The notes under the pieces were generated by a model that was not told where the DNA came from, made no database searches, and was given only the letters and a program-made list of their open reading frames with translations. From Myxococcota bacterium (GTDB lineage: Bacteria > Myxococcota_A > UBA9160 > SZUA-336): a stretch of DNA of 42,343 bases. A program made the translations under genes and the position numbers. Shown here in pieces: positions 13,384 through 27,961 of this stretch. Every line of letters starts with the position of its first letter. The stretch's first letter is position 1. The DNA lies in NCBI GenBank assembly GCA_035498015.1, contig DATKAO010000226.1:1-42343 (forward strand), in the 5' to 3' direction.

Positions 13384-15693
<2,310 letters not shown>

Positions 15694-22494: not shown

Positions 22495-22498
<4 letters not shown>
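21719..22498 (+). CDS. livG: Branched-chain-type ABC transporter ATPase LivG
   Basis: A 259-residue ABC ATPase. Walker A GPNGAGKTT is at 36-44, the Q-loop at Q85 (ARTFQNIRLF), the signature is LPYGEQ (151-156, the LivG-type replacement of LSGGQ), Walker B LLLLDEP (171-177) and the H-loop is in LIDHD. The extended C-terminal region (ADPRVIEAYLG) is typical of this group. It overlaps livF by GTGA. It powers uptake with LivF on the cytoplasmic side. Confidence 0.93.
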
Positions 22499-23217
<719 letters not shown>

Positions 23218-23228
23218 AATCGGCCGGG

Positions 23229-24935
23229 ATGGACCTGCGCAGACACGCTCCGAACGCTCTCTCCGGTCTGCGCATCGCGCTGGTGCCGGTGTTGCTGTGG
23301 CTTTCATTTCGAGGACACCCGACGGCGTTTCTCGTGACCTTCGCGTTCTCGCTCTCGACCGACTTGCTCGACGGCTACCTCGCGCGCCGCTTCCGCTCGG
23401 GCACGCTGCTCGGCGCGAAGCTCGACAGCTGGGGCGACTTCGCGACCTATGCCGCCTTTCCGCTGTGCGCGTGGTGGGCGTTCCACGACAAGGTCACCGA
23501 GCAGCTTCCGTTCGTGATCGCCGCGCTGGTCGGGTTCCTGGCGCCGACGGTGATCGGGCTCGCGAAATTCCGGCGCATCACCAGCTACCATACGCGCCTG
23601 GCGAAGGCGGTCGCGATCGTGATGGGGGTGGGTTTGATCCTGTATCTCGGCTTCGGGGTCGCGGGATTCTTCCAGGCAGCGGTGTTGTTTCTCATGCTCG
23701 AGGCGATCGAAGAGGTCGCCATCACCGCCGTGCTGCCGGGGTGGCGCGCCAACGTGCCGTCGTTCGCCGCCGCGCTGCGCATCGCGCGCGCCGCGAAGCC
23801 GGCGCTCTTGCTGGCGCTGGCGCTCGTGGGTCTGGCGGGGCGGGCCGCCGCGCAGGCAGCGCTGCCCGACCTCACGCCCGACGTCTCGGACCTGCTCGTC
23901 GAGTACGACACGAGCGTCGACGAGGGCGACGTGGCCGAGGGCTGCGCGGCCGCGACCGATCACCGCGACCTGGTGCGACTCAGTCTCACCACGCGCAACG
24001 ACGGCCCGGGCGAGGAGGAGCTCGGCGACCCGATGTGCCCGAACTGCCTGACCCACCCCGACGAGGTGTGCGGCAACCCGCTGTTCATCTGCAGCCCGGC
24101 GGGCGGTCACGACCACCCGCACTACCAGGACTTCCTGCGCTACGAGATCGTCGACCCCAACGACCCCAACGGCACGGTCGCGGTGGGCGGCAAGCGCAGC
24201 TTCTGCCTCGAGGACACCGACTGCGAGCCCGGCTTCAAGGGCAGTCACACCTGCGAGGACCAGGGCCTGAACCCGCACTGCTCCGACACCTATCCGTACT
24301 GGCTCGGCTGTCAGTACGTCGACGTGACCGACCTGCCCGACGGCACTTACGATCTGCGCGTCACCGTGGACCCGCTGGGCCAGATCGCGGAGACGGACGA
24401 GACCAACAACGTGCGCATCACGACGGGCATCCTGATCTCGCGCGCCGCGCCCACCGACCACACGCTCGACGGCGGCGCGCTCCTGCTGAAGGGCGCGAGC
24501 GTGCTGCGGGTCAAGGCCAACTCACTCGACAAGCTCGACCTCTCGACGCCGGACTTCGATCCCACGGTCGCCGGCGCGACCCTGGTCGTGACCGACACGG
24601 GCGCAGGAGAGCAGATCGCGTTCGGCCTGCCGGCCTCGGGCTGGAAGCGGGTGGGGAAGGCGAGCGGCCCGCGCATGTTCCGGTACAAGGGCGACGGCTC
24701 GGACCTCGACCCGTGCCGCTCGGTCCAGCTCTCGCGCGGCGGGCTGCGCGCGCGCTGCAGCCTGGCGGGCGACCACGAGCACATTCCCCTGCCGGTGAAG
24801 GGCGACGTGGCGGTGCAGCTCATGCTCTCGGGCGGCCAGCGCCTGTGCGCCAGCTTCGGCGGCGTGAACGTGCGCAACGACAGCACGCTGGTGAAGCGGA
24901 GGAACGCCGATCCCGACGGCTGCAGCCTCGATTGA
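23229..24935 (+). CDS. CDP-alcohol phosphatidyltransferase fused to a lysyl oxidase domain
   Basis: A continuous 568-codon frame. Residues 1-185 are a membrane CDP-alcohol phosphatidyltransferase with the full motif D45-x2-D48-G-x2-A52-R53, G62, D66, D70, which transfers a phosphatidyl group from CDP-diacylglycerol. Its usual end (EEVAITAVLPGWR, 161-173) is followed by a signal-like helix (189-210, ending RAAAQA). Residues about 213-403 are lysyl-oxidase-like: copper His H294-D-H296-P-H298, the quinone-cofactor Lys K322 in GGKRSFCLED and Tyr Y355 in CSDTYPYW, and ETNNVRI at the end. Residues 410-568 are a beta-rich repeat of unknown role. Either one two-sided membrane protein is made, or an internal GTG (23754, V176) starts a separate exported oxidase. 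The fusion is the most unusual protein in the window. Confidence 0.82.
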   Translation: MDLRRHAPNALSGLRIALVPVLLWLSFRGHPTAFLVTFAFSLSTDLLDGYLARRFRSGTLLGAKLDSWGDFATYAAFPLCAWWAFHDKVTEQLPFVIAALVGFLAPTVIGLAKFRRITSYHTRLAKAVAIVMGVGLILYLGFGVAGFFQAAVLFLMLEAIEEVAITAVLPGWRANVPSFAAALRIARAAKPALLLALALVGLAGRAAAQAALPDLTPDVSDLLVEYDTSVDEGDVAEGCAAATDHRDLVRLSLTTRNDGPGEEELGDPMCPNCLTHPDEVCGNPLFICSPAGGHDHPHYQDFLRYEIVDPNDPNGTVAVGGKRSFCLEDTDCEPGFKGSHTCEDQGLNPHCSDTYPYWLGCQYVDVTDLPDGTYDLRVTVDPLGQIAETDETNNVRITTGILISRAAPTDHTLDGGALLLKGASVLRVKANSLDKLDLSTPDFDPTVAGATLVVTDTGAGEQIAFGLPASGWKRVGKASGPRMFRYKGDGSDLDPCRSVQLSRGGLRARCSLAGDHEHIPLPVKGDVAVQLMLSGGQRLCASFGGVNVRNDSTLVKRRNADPDGCSLD

Positions 24936-24938
24936 TTC

Positions 24939-25556
24939 GTGAGTCGTGACTCGCTGCGCGCGGTGCTGTGGGACCTGGACGGCGTGCTGGTCGACAGCTA
25001 CGAGGTGTGGTTCCACCTGTTGAATCACTGCGCACGCGCGTTCGCGGCACCGGCGGTGTCGCGCGAGGCGTTCGCCGCGGGCTGGGGCCAGGGCATCGAG
25101 CGCGACGTGGAGAGCTTCTACCCCGGCCGCACGATCGCCGAGGTCGAGGCCTTCTACCACGCGAACTTCATGGCGCACGCGGCGCACCTGCGGATCGACC
25201 CCGACGCGGCGCGAGTGATCGCAGGCCTGCGCGCCGCCGGCCTGCGCCAGGCGCTGATCACCAACACGCCCGGGCCGCTCGCGCAGGAGATCCTGCGCCA
25301 CGCGCGCCTCGAGCTCGACGCGGTGGTCGGCGGCACCGACGTGGCGGCGGGCAAGCCCGCGCCCGACATGGTGCTCGAGGCCTGCCGCCGGCTGGGAGTG
25401 ACTCCCGAACGGGCGGTCGTGGTCGGTGACTCGCGCTTCGATCGCGCCGCCGCCGCCGCGGCGAAGGTCGCATTCATCGGCCTGCGCCTGGACGGCGGCG
25501 TGCGAATCGAGCGGCTCAGTGAGCTACCGGGCTTGCTCGGCGGCTCGAGGCGGTAG
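24939..25556 (+). CDS. HAD-superfamily hydrolase (phosphatase)
   Basis: A 205-residue HAD phosphatase of the phosphoglycolate-phosphatase/beta-phosphoglucomutase type. Motif I is DLDGVLVDS (12-20; D12 nucleophile and D14 acid), motif II ALITNTPG, motif III GGTDVAAGKPAP (Lys) and motif IV VVVGDSRFD. A helical cap (residues 20-95) points to a small phosphorylated substrate. It starts at GTG 24939, 3 nt after the previous stop. The stop overlaps the convergent DUF2834 gene by 41 bp. Confidence 0.88.
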   Translation: MSRDSLRAVLWDLDGVLVDSYEVWFHLLNHCARAFAAPAVSREAFAAGWGQGIERDVESFYPGRTIAEVEAFYHANFMAHAAHLRIDPDAARVIAGLRAAGLRQALITNTPGPLAQEILRHARLELDAVVGGTDVAAGKPAPDMVLEACRRLGVTPERAVVVGDSRFDRAAAAAAKVAFIGLRLDGGVRIERLSELPGLLGGSRR

Positions 25557-25848
25557 CCGCGGCGCGCAGCTCGCGAGTCACGAGATAGAGCAGCGGCCCG
25601 AACGAGCCGGCGAACACGGTCACGATCAGGAACGGCCAGGGCGAGATGCCGCGCGCGCGCGCGTCCGCGAGCATCCAGATGCAGCCGAGCGCGCACATGA
25701 TCACGAGGTCGGCCAGCACCTGGCCCTGGCCCCAGCTCTGGAAGTGCGGCTCGATGATGCCGAGGTAGCCGACCTCGCGCAGCGCGAGCGCCGTAAGCAG
25801 ACCGAACAGGCCGAGCACCACGAAGAGCGCGAGAAGCCGAAGAGACAT
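25516..25848 (-). CDS. DUF2834-like membrane protein
   Basis: A 110-residue protein with three hydrophobic helices (LRLLALFVVLGLFGLLTALAL, ADLVIMCALGCIWMLA, FLIVTVFAGSFGPLLYLV). The last two with the DARARGI loop and FGPLLYL match the DUF2834 pattern as I recall it. Function is unknown. ATG 25848 follows GGGAGG by about 8 nt. It is divergent from the XRE regulator; the 127-bp space between could carry a shared operator, but I see no clear inverted repeat. Confidence 0.6.
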   Translation of the reverse strand: MSLRLLALFVVLGLFGLLTALALREVGYLGIIEPHFQSWGQGQVLADLVIMCALGCIWMLADARARGISPWPFLIVTVFAGSFGPLLYLVTRELRAAATASSRRASPVAH

Positions 25849-25975
25849 CGGGGGTTCCTCCCAAGGTTGTGAGGCCAGGATCGGTCGTGCCCTGCGGCGC
25901 TTCAATTACCTGCGAGGTCATTGAGCCGCCTCCGCGGCCGCGCGAGAATCCAGGCCGAGAACGAGGAGAAGCACC

Positions 25976-26788
25976 GTGTCACTCTCGACCCTCCGCGCGC
26001 GCCGCGTCGAGTCCTCGCCGTTCCCAGGGCTCCTGAAGGCCGGGCGCAAGCGCCGCAGGCTGTCGCAGCTCGAGCTCGCGCTGCAGTCCGGAGTCTCGCA
26101 GCGCCACCTGAGCTTCCTCGAGTCGGGCCGCGCGAAGCCCAGCCGCGCGATGATCCTGCAGCTCAGCGAGACCCTCGAGGTGCCCCTGCGCGAACGCAAC
26201 GACTGGCTCGTGGCCGCGGGCTTCGCGCCCGTGTTCCGCGCGCGACTCCTGGACGACCCGCAGATGAACCAGGTGATGAGCGCGGTGCGGCTCATGCTCG
26301 CGAATCACGAGCCGTTCCCGGCCATCGCCATCGATCGCGCCTGGAACATCCGGCTCGCCAACCGCGCGTTCGAGCGCTTCGAGTCACTTCTGGGCGCGAA
26401 CGTCTGGGCCCGGGTGGGCGGCGCGGAGCGCAACCTGATGCGCCTCACGTTCCACCCCGGCGGCATCCGCCCGCTGATCGCGAACTGGGCGGAGATCGCG
26501 CCGCTGCTCTGGCACCGCGCGAGCCGAGAGGCCGAGGCCGTCGGCGGCCAGGACATGAAGGCCGTGCTGGCCGAGCTCGCGCCCTACCAGTCGAACGAGA
26601 CTCTCTGGGGCGACGCCGACGCGGCCCTTCTGCCCGTGCTGCCGCTCGTGCTGGAGATCGGCGGCGTACGCATGTCTCTCTTCACGATGATCGCGACCTT
26701 CGGCACGCCGCAGGACGTGACCGCCGACGAGCTGCGCATCGAGAGCTTCTTCCCCGCCGACGCGGCGACGGAGCAGCTGTTCCGCTGA
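25976..26788 (+). CDS. XRE-family transcriptional regulator with MmyB-type ligand domain
   Basis: A 270-residue regulator. Residues about 18-75 are a Cro/cI-type helix-turn-helix (GLLKAGRKRRRLSQLELALQ, then GVSQRHLSFLESGRAKPSRA). Residues 105-270 resemble the MmyB-like ligand-binding domain (AIAIDRAWNIRLANRAFERF, RLTFHPGGIRPLIANW), a PAS-like fold implicated in fatty-acid or other small-ligand sensing. GTG 25976 follows GAGGAGA by 7 nt. Its position beside the acyl-CoA cluster makes control of that cluster plausible but unproven. Confidence 0.85.
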   Translation: MSLSTLRARRVESSPFPGLLKAGRKRRRLSQLELALQSGVSQRHLSFLESGRAKPSRAMILQLSETLEVPLRERNDWLVAAGFAPVFRARLLDDPQMNQVMSAVRLMLANHEPFPAIAIDRAWNIRLANRAFERFESLLGANVWARVGGAERNLMRLTFHPGGIRPLIANWAEIAPLLWHRASREAEAVGGQDMKAVLAELAPYQSNETLWGDADAALLPVLPLVLEIGGVRMSLFTMIATFGTPQDVTADELRIESFFPADAATEQLFR

Positions 26789-27898
26789 CTACTGCAGCGG
26801 CGCCAGATCGATCTTGTACAGGTCGGCGACGTTCTGCGACAGGATCGCGCGGCGCTGCTCTTCGCTGAGCTGCGCCGCGTGCTCCTTCAGCATCTCCTGC
26901 GACCACGGCCAGGTCGAGTCACTGTGCGGGAAGTCGTTGGCCCACATGAGCCGGCGCCAGTTCATCTGATCGGCGCTCTTGAACGCGACCCAGTCGTCCT
27001 GGAACGTGGTGTAGATGTGCTCGGAGAAATACTCGGACGGCAGCTTCGAGAGCTGCTGTCCGGCCGGCAGCCAGTAGCGGTGCCGCTTGTAGGCGTGGTC
27101 CATGCGGTACATGTAGTGCGGCACCCAGCCGGCGTCGGCCTCGACGCACACCACCCGGAGCTTCGGGTGACGCTCGAACACGCCGCCCAGGATCAGCGTG
27201 CCCATGATGTCCTGGCAGCCGCGGATGATCGACAGGAAGCTGTTCATCTTCGGGCCGCGCGTGGGCGCGGTCTCGCGCACGGTCAGGATGTGGAACGAGA
27301 GCGGCAGCTCGAGCTCGACCGCCGCCTCCCAGAACTCGTCGTACACGAGTGAGTCGTAGTCCTCGACCGCCGGGTTGCCCGGCATCATGACTCCGCGCAG
27401 GCCGAGTCTCTGGATCGCGCGCAGGTCCTCGATGCCTTCCGCGGGCGAGCGCATCGCGGTCTGACCCACGCCCAGCAGCCGGTCGGGGTGAGCCGAGCAG
27501 TACTGCGCGATCCAGCGGTTGTAGGCGTCGAAGCACGCCTTCTTGTAGTCGAAGTCGGCGTGATTGCAGAGCACCATGCCGACCGTGGGGTAGATGACCT
27601 CGGCAGACACTCCGTCGCGCACCTGGTCGGCCATGCGCGCCTCGGGATCCCAGCCGCCGCGGTGCAGCTCGGCGAACTTGGTGCCCTTGATGCGGATCTC
27701 TTCCGGTGGCTTGCCGGCCGCGGCCGCGAGCCCGACCAGCACCGGCCGCGCCATGCCGTCCACGATGAACACGTCACCCATCTCGCCGACCTGCTCCATG
27801 CGCGGCGCGCGCGACTTCCAGGCGTGATCGATGAAGTCGAGGTAGGTGTTGGGCGGCTCGGTGACGTGCGAGTCCGCGGAGATGATCGGGTAGGGCAT
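26789..27898 (-). CDS. Amidohydrolase-2 family metal-dependent hydrolase
   Basis: A 369-residue TIM-barrel amidohydrolase of the ACMSD/decarboxylase-like group. Metal positions: D9-S-H11 (in SADSHVTEP, the variant of the usual HxH), H203 in SFHILT and D322 in WANDFPHSDSTWP, with H325. In this family such proteins hydrolyse or decarboxylate cyclic and aromatic intermediates. ATG 27898 follows GGAGGAG by 6 nt. It is convergent with the XRE gene (stops adjacent) and divergent from the acyl-CoA dehydrogenase at 27962, across a 63-bp promoter region. Confidence 0.85.
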   Translation of the reverse strand: MPYPIISADSHVTEPPNTYLDFIDHAWKSRAPRMEQVGEMGDVFIVDGMARPVLVGLAAAAGKPPEEIRIKGTKFAELHRGGWDPEARMADQVRDGVSAEVIYPTVGMVLCNHADFDYKKACFDAYNRWIAQYCSAHPDRLLGVGQTAMRSPAEGIEDLRAIQRLGLRGVMMPGNPAVEDYDSLVYDEFWEAAVELELPLSFHILTVRETAPTRGPKMNSFLSIIRGCQDIMGTLILGGVFERHPKLRVVCVEADAGWVPHYMYRMDHAYKRHRYWLPAGQQLSKLPSEYFSEHIYTTFQDDWVAFKSADQMNWRRLMWANDFPHSDSTWPWSQEMLKEHAAQLSEEQRRAILSQNVADLYKIDLAPLQ

Positions 27899-27961
27899 CG
27901 GCGGCTCCTCCAGACCCCATGATAAGCTGCGCGGCGTCCGGTTCACCAATCGAGGGAGCCC

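Follow-up and report, generated by a model that had tools for sequence, protein, structure and literature searches.

A single open frame in the window, by which we mean the whole 42,343-nucleotide stretch of the Myxococcota bacterium contig DATKAO010000226.1 that was analyzed, joins a CDP-alcohol phosphatidyltransferase (CDP-AT) to a lysyl oxidase (LOX) through a segment that resembles a Sec signal. We consider it probable, at roughly 0.6, that this frame arose by a recent, lineage-restricted fusion of two complete neighboring genes and that the LOX part of its product is exported and probably cut free, leaving two separately acting enzymes. The fused frame was seen in one genome only and is thus a lineage-restricted event or, less likely, an artifact; we regard it as probably real, a one-genome curiosity with two ordinary enzymes. 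The features on which this reading draws are as follows.

22495..23217, plus strand: livF-type ABC ATPase, last gene of the livK-H-M-G-F set, immediately upstream of the fused gene; syntenic in the same-genus genome G001 (82% identity)
23229..24935, plus strand: CDP-AT, signal-like segment, LOX, and C-terminal domain in one open frame of 568 aa
23229..23783, plus strand: CDP-AT part (aa 1-185), from Pfam, six predicted membrane helices, and the motif
23754..23756, plus strand: in-frame GTG (V176); a start scan in all three frames gave no other plausible place from which a separate LOX with a signal peptide could begin
23784..23858, plus strand: joint, a Sec-signal-like segment (aa 186-210), from hydropathy, an AlphaFold2 (AF2) helix, and counterparts in L033 and L067
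23859..24479, plus strand: LOX part (aa 211-417; H294/H296/H298, K322, Y355), from Pfam, alignment, and fold match
24111-24416, plus strand: Pfam Lysyl_oxidase (PF01186) core (aa 295-396)
24528..24896, plus strand: unnamed C-terminal domain (aa 434-556), which recurs at the ends of other proteins in the class
24939..25556, plus strand: HAD-family hydrolase, immediately downstream; its copy in G001 overlaps the livF stop

The frame begins with an ATG 12 nt downstream of the livF stop. A preliminary description had read this stretch as one frame joining a CDP-AT to a LOX, and so it is: all 568 aa are open, the Pfam matches of both domains score far above chance, and every residue named in the two halves, from D45 to Y355, lies at its assigned position. 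GC3 is 0.90-1.0 from aa 151 on, joint included, and since it is unbroken across the joint, there is no sign of a frameshift. With the GC3 phase continuous, we ruled out a frameshift inside 23229-24935. Frame 2 is likewise open over the whole gene.

The upstream half is a membrane enzyme of the CDP-AT family. The Pfam model CDP-OH_P_transf (PF01066) matches aa 6-152 (E 9.3e-18; 65.5 bits against a cut-off of 22), and the motif D45xxDGxxAR...G62xxxD66xxxD70 is complete, with D45, D48, G49, A52, R53, G62, D66, and D70 all present. In the AF2 model of the full protein, helices span residues 3-27, 31-55, 60-84, 93-114, 123-142, and 145-168 at a pLDDT of 90-98, and together with Foldseek this model gives the six-helix membrane fold of PF01066. 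Foldseek aligned the half with phosphatidylglycerol phosphate synthase (7drk/7drj; target TM about 0.65) and also with the PIP synthases 6h5a/6wmv, and no substrate-specific or equivalog model of NCBIfam matched it at its cut-off. Five other PF01066 genes are present elsewhere in the genome, and thus the fused CDP-AT is not its only one.

The downstream half is a LOX by both sequence and fold. PF01186 matches aa 295-396 with an E value of 4e-25 (89.1 bits against a cut-off of 20.4), and when nine bacterial LOX domains drawn from related genomes are aligned, H294, H296, H298, K322, and Y355 are invariant. By sequence, the best PDB match is human LOXL2 (E 8.5e-18), in which LTQ is formed by Lys653 and Tyr689 (PMC9694262), the counterparts of K322 and Y355. 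The extra N-terminal histidine of animal LOX, H289, is missing here, as it is from other bacterial LOX (PMC4448552). Modeled separately, the LOX part had a pLDDT of about 74-93 over aa 206-405 and was confident to about aa 405; the best PDB matches of this model were both chains of LOXL2 5ze3 (E 1e-11), which identifies the LOX fold. LOX is already known from bacteria and archaea (PMC4448552), and its homologs proved to be widespread in the phylum, not scattered as had been supposed. An archaeal LOX is active only once its hydrophobic N-terminal segment is removed and is a promiscuous amine oxidase (PMC6452851); given this promiscuity, we say no more of the substrate of the window LOX than that it would be a primary amine present outside the inner membrane. 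One genome, G100 (L062, G100:C18, 157000-168000; L070), has three LOX copies, one of them broken by a TGA, and these come closest to the window LOX (45-49%). Elsewhere in the window, 8 kb upstream of the LOX, 13384-15693 encodes a P-type metal ATPase, probably for copper, that carries YHS and heavy-metal-binding domains; there is no sign of a link between it and the LOX.

Behind the LOX, aa 434-556 form a third domain, with matches in five genomes (G048, G035, G016, G024, and G054); like the signal-like joint, it had not been noted in the preliminary description. It is a unit of ~110 aa that many proteins of this class carry at their ends (also L021, L022, and L081-L090), and its alignment has invariant L, P, W, and F and three Cys positions in the pattern DPT..GA.L.......LPA.GW...G...G...YRY......C...........C......L......C..FGG.V..D. 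A Pfam search with aa 434-556 gave no match, a PDB search gave no solved relative, and this tail (aa ~434-556) was poorly modeled in the predicted structure.

The joint, aa 186-210, reads ARAAKPALLLALALVGLAGRAAAQA. By inspection and hydropathy, it has charges at R187 and K190, a hydrophobic stretch of ~13 residues (191-203), G204-R205, and then AAAQA (206-210). It adjoins ALPDLT, and LPDL is the start of LOX in relatives. LOX homologs start at positions matching aa ~208-212, in several cases directly behind a signal peptide; in L033 and L067, the signal peptide sits at the equivalent place, just before LPDL/QPDL. Of 27 stand-alone CDP-AT relatives (37-52% identity over most pairs), 24 stop at positions matching aa 186-201; the remaining three (L038, L056, and L058) run on for 25-40 aa, with neither a hydrophobic stretch nor a LOX in the tail. 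Because CDP-AT relatives end and LOX homologs begin here, the joint is where the stop of one gene and the start of the next would be expected. AF2 predicts a helix over 179-211 after the six membrane helices, with falling confidence, and the joint is the end of this seventh helix. Since the number of helices ahead of it is even, the joint would lie on the cytoplasmic face, which is correct for an N-in signal. Judged from these sequence features, the joint is probably a cleavable signal peptide that would free LOX from CDP-AT. The earlier proposal that the amine oxidase is extracytoplasmic therefore agrees with the location predicted from a signal-like joint behind a six-helix CDP-AT.

We looked for the domain pair in about 830 genomes, among them every one of the 91 listed for the class of the window, by whole-protein searches of 60 relatives, 379 genomes of the phylum, and 290 genomes of a sister class and by a PF01186 search of all 91 class genomes. 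No second protein covering both CDP-AT and LOX was found in these about 830 genomes; the pair occurs only in the window's own genome and does not constitute a conserved fusion family. LOX is present in 3 of the 91 class genomes and in many genomes elsewhere in the phylum, never fused, and about 27 class genomes have CDP-AT relatives, the close ones standing alone. The preliminary description had held that orthologs always split into two genes would count against it, and this is what the about 830 genomes contain: CDP-AT on its own and LOX as separate secreted proteins. One fusion candidate, a match in G508 starting at aa 170, was rejected because, when read through, it proved to be a LOX on its own that starts like a lipoprotein. 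Screening GTDB contigs for close relatives turned up nothing but distant LOX pieces, LOX was not found as a conserved neighbor in the gene neighborhoods of stand-alone CDP-AT relatives, and a literature search for the pair found no paper. In a tree built from the CDP-AT relatives, support for the placement of the window protein was weak, and no donor could be named from it. Several stand-alone CDP-AT relatives (L057, L066, and L071) have, upstream of the CDP-AT gene, one for a small, membrane-like protein (~125 aa; M(S/T)A.AVFC..TV.FLV.RDLF...), which may be their real conserved partner.

The livK-H-M-G-F genes upstream form a branched-chain amino acid ABC set. In G001, the liv and HAD genes are 66-83% identical to those of the window and keep their order, and the corresponding site is empty: livF ends in an ATGA that overlaps the HAD start, with nothing between. 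Because these two genes abut there without the fused gene, the latter is a unit of ~1.7 kb that was either gained here or lost in G001. A second difference from G001 lies at 25560-27900, where an XRE/MmyB-type regulator (25976-26788) and an amidohydrolase (26789-27898) sit between the HAD gene and acyl-CoA dehydrogenase genes in the window and do not do so in G001.

The alternative that survives best is an assembly or consensus artifact, with two adjacent genes in reality and their boundary lost in the MAG, and we consider it unlikely. The fused frame comes from a single MAG of 257 contigs, all relatives have CDP-AT and LOX separate, and the joint contains a GC-repeat stretch (cgcgcgcgccgcg); because stops are rare at 72% GC (hence the open frame 2), a small error easily leaves a frame open. 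However, two complete genes cannot be obtained by any single substitution. Near the joint, only S178, K190, and L194 could be turned into a stop by one base change, and the other two frames have no ATG, GTG, or TTG from 23742 to 23862. With a stop at any of these three codons, a LOX with a charged n-region would have no start, so the frame cannot be put down to one wrong base. Loss of a stop by a single base change was therefore ruled out as its source, with no start left for a complete signal peptide. Additionally, the unbroken GC3 phase argues against an artifact, as does the precision required of a chance mis-join, which must hit both gene ends and do so in frame. The assembly error that the preliminary description had named as its other weak point is thus an unlikely source of the frame.

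Ranked next, and given low odds by us, is a gene within a gene, in which CDP-AT has a long tail or readthrough and LOX is made mainly from the in-frame GTG at 23754, its signal peptide then being some 33-35 aa long. The stretch ggggtgg lies 9 nt ahead of this codon, and R184, R187, and K190 precede the hydrophobic stretch, but at 72% GC neither a GTG codon nor a G-rich stretch is unusual. Moreover, without a stop ending CDP-AT, the long product would be made anyway.

A stable bifunctional enzyme, which we think distinctly improbable, would keep aa 186-210 as an uncut seventh helix and tether LOX outside beside a phospholipid synthase, coupling lipid synthesis to amine oxidation, with aminophospholipid head groups or envelope proteins as examples of targets. 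One frame does carry both complete catalytic sites, and the single AF2 helix over 179-211 is of membrane-spanning length if A186-A211 are buried. However, the short h-region ending in G204-R205 and AAAQA is typical of cleaved signals, the two active sites would face opposite sides of the membrane, and the pair is fused in no relative and was not seen as conserved neighbors. We are, if anything, more doubtful that in a membrane-tethered CDP-AT/LOX, an envelope lipid is made on the inner face in physical coupling with copper amine oxidation at the outer one. Because relatives keep the genes separate and the joint is probably a secretion signal, a local fusion cut into two ordinary enzymes is likelier than a lipid-oxidase machine. 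Of the reading offered by the preliminary description, the single frame, the complete catalytic residues, and the predicted location of LOX outside the cytoplasm stand, whereas the functional link from lipid to oxidase does not; a new connection between envelope lipids and amine oxidation is not borne out by domains that are separate in relatives and a joint that is probably cleavable. Finally, it is very improbable that the gene is a decaying acquisition in which one half or both have lost activity: although the gene is absent from the same-genus genome, both parts are patchily distributed, and five other CDP-AT genes perhaps make the fused one dispensable, the catalytic residues are all kept, there are no stops, and the GC by codon position is normal.

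For the preferred reading, a local fusion with a cleavable joint, we infer fusion as the direction of change and infer likewise the topology, cleavage, and activity of the protein. A stand-alone six-helix CDP-AT gene would have lost its stop, and a downstream secreted LOX gene, with its own signal peptide, LOX domain, and class-specific C-terminal domain, would have lost its start, leaving one frame. The CDP-AT part would insert into the membrane with its active site and C terminus cytoplasmic, and the old LOX signal peptide, aa 186-210, would serve as a seventh segment, N-in/C-out, that exports LOX. Signal peptidase I would probably cut after A208 or A210, leaving a CDP-AT of about 208-210 aa in the membrane and setting a copper/LTQ amine oxidase free beyond the inner membrane. 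As in relatives, the cut enzymes would then act separately.

If the frame is real, both the CDP-AT and the LOX family gain a new domain architecture, and nature offers a case of two unrelated enzymes merged through the signal peptide of the second, a merger that would be harmless if the protein is cut there. It would show how, in GC-rich genomes, fusions across a signal peptide can arise without functional partnership, which calls for caution with "Rosetta stone" logic, in which function is inferred from single-genome domain fusions. The fused frame says little that is new about LOX or lipid chemistry.

A cut internal signal behind a polytopic domain is found in the cytochrome b/c1 precursor FbcH of Bradyrhizobium. 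There, as we propose here, a polytopic membrane protein is fused in frame to an exported protein via the latter's signal peptide. The FbcH halves, however, are partners in one complex and their signal is cut, whereas the window pair has no known partnership and its cleavage is predicted. Known fusions within the CDP-AT family carry a cytosolic nucleotidyltransferase at the N terminus (IPCT-DIPPS, AF2299; 4mnd and 4o6m, both among the Foldseek matches). Compared with the PF01066 enzymes 7drk/7drj and 6h5a/6wmv, the window protein has the same six-helix fold and the same complete D-xx-DG-xx-AR...G-xxx-D-xxx-D motif, but here a predicted exported enzyme follows at the C terminus. Prokaryotic LOX (PF01186), such as HTU-LOX of Haloterrigena turkmenica and myxobacterial LOX, share with the window LOX the LOX core with three copper histidines and the LTQ Lys/Tyr pair and, probably, an N-terminal hydrophobic export segment. 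Sorangium LOX has an accessory C-terminal domain (PMC6452851), and the window LOX also carries one. In the window, a complete CDP-AT enzyme stands in frame ahead of the putative export segment, an architecture found nowhere else in the about 830 genomes searched.
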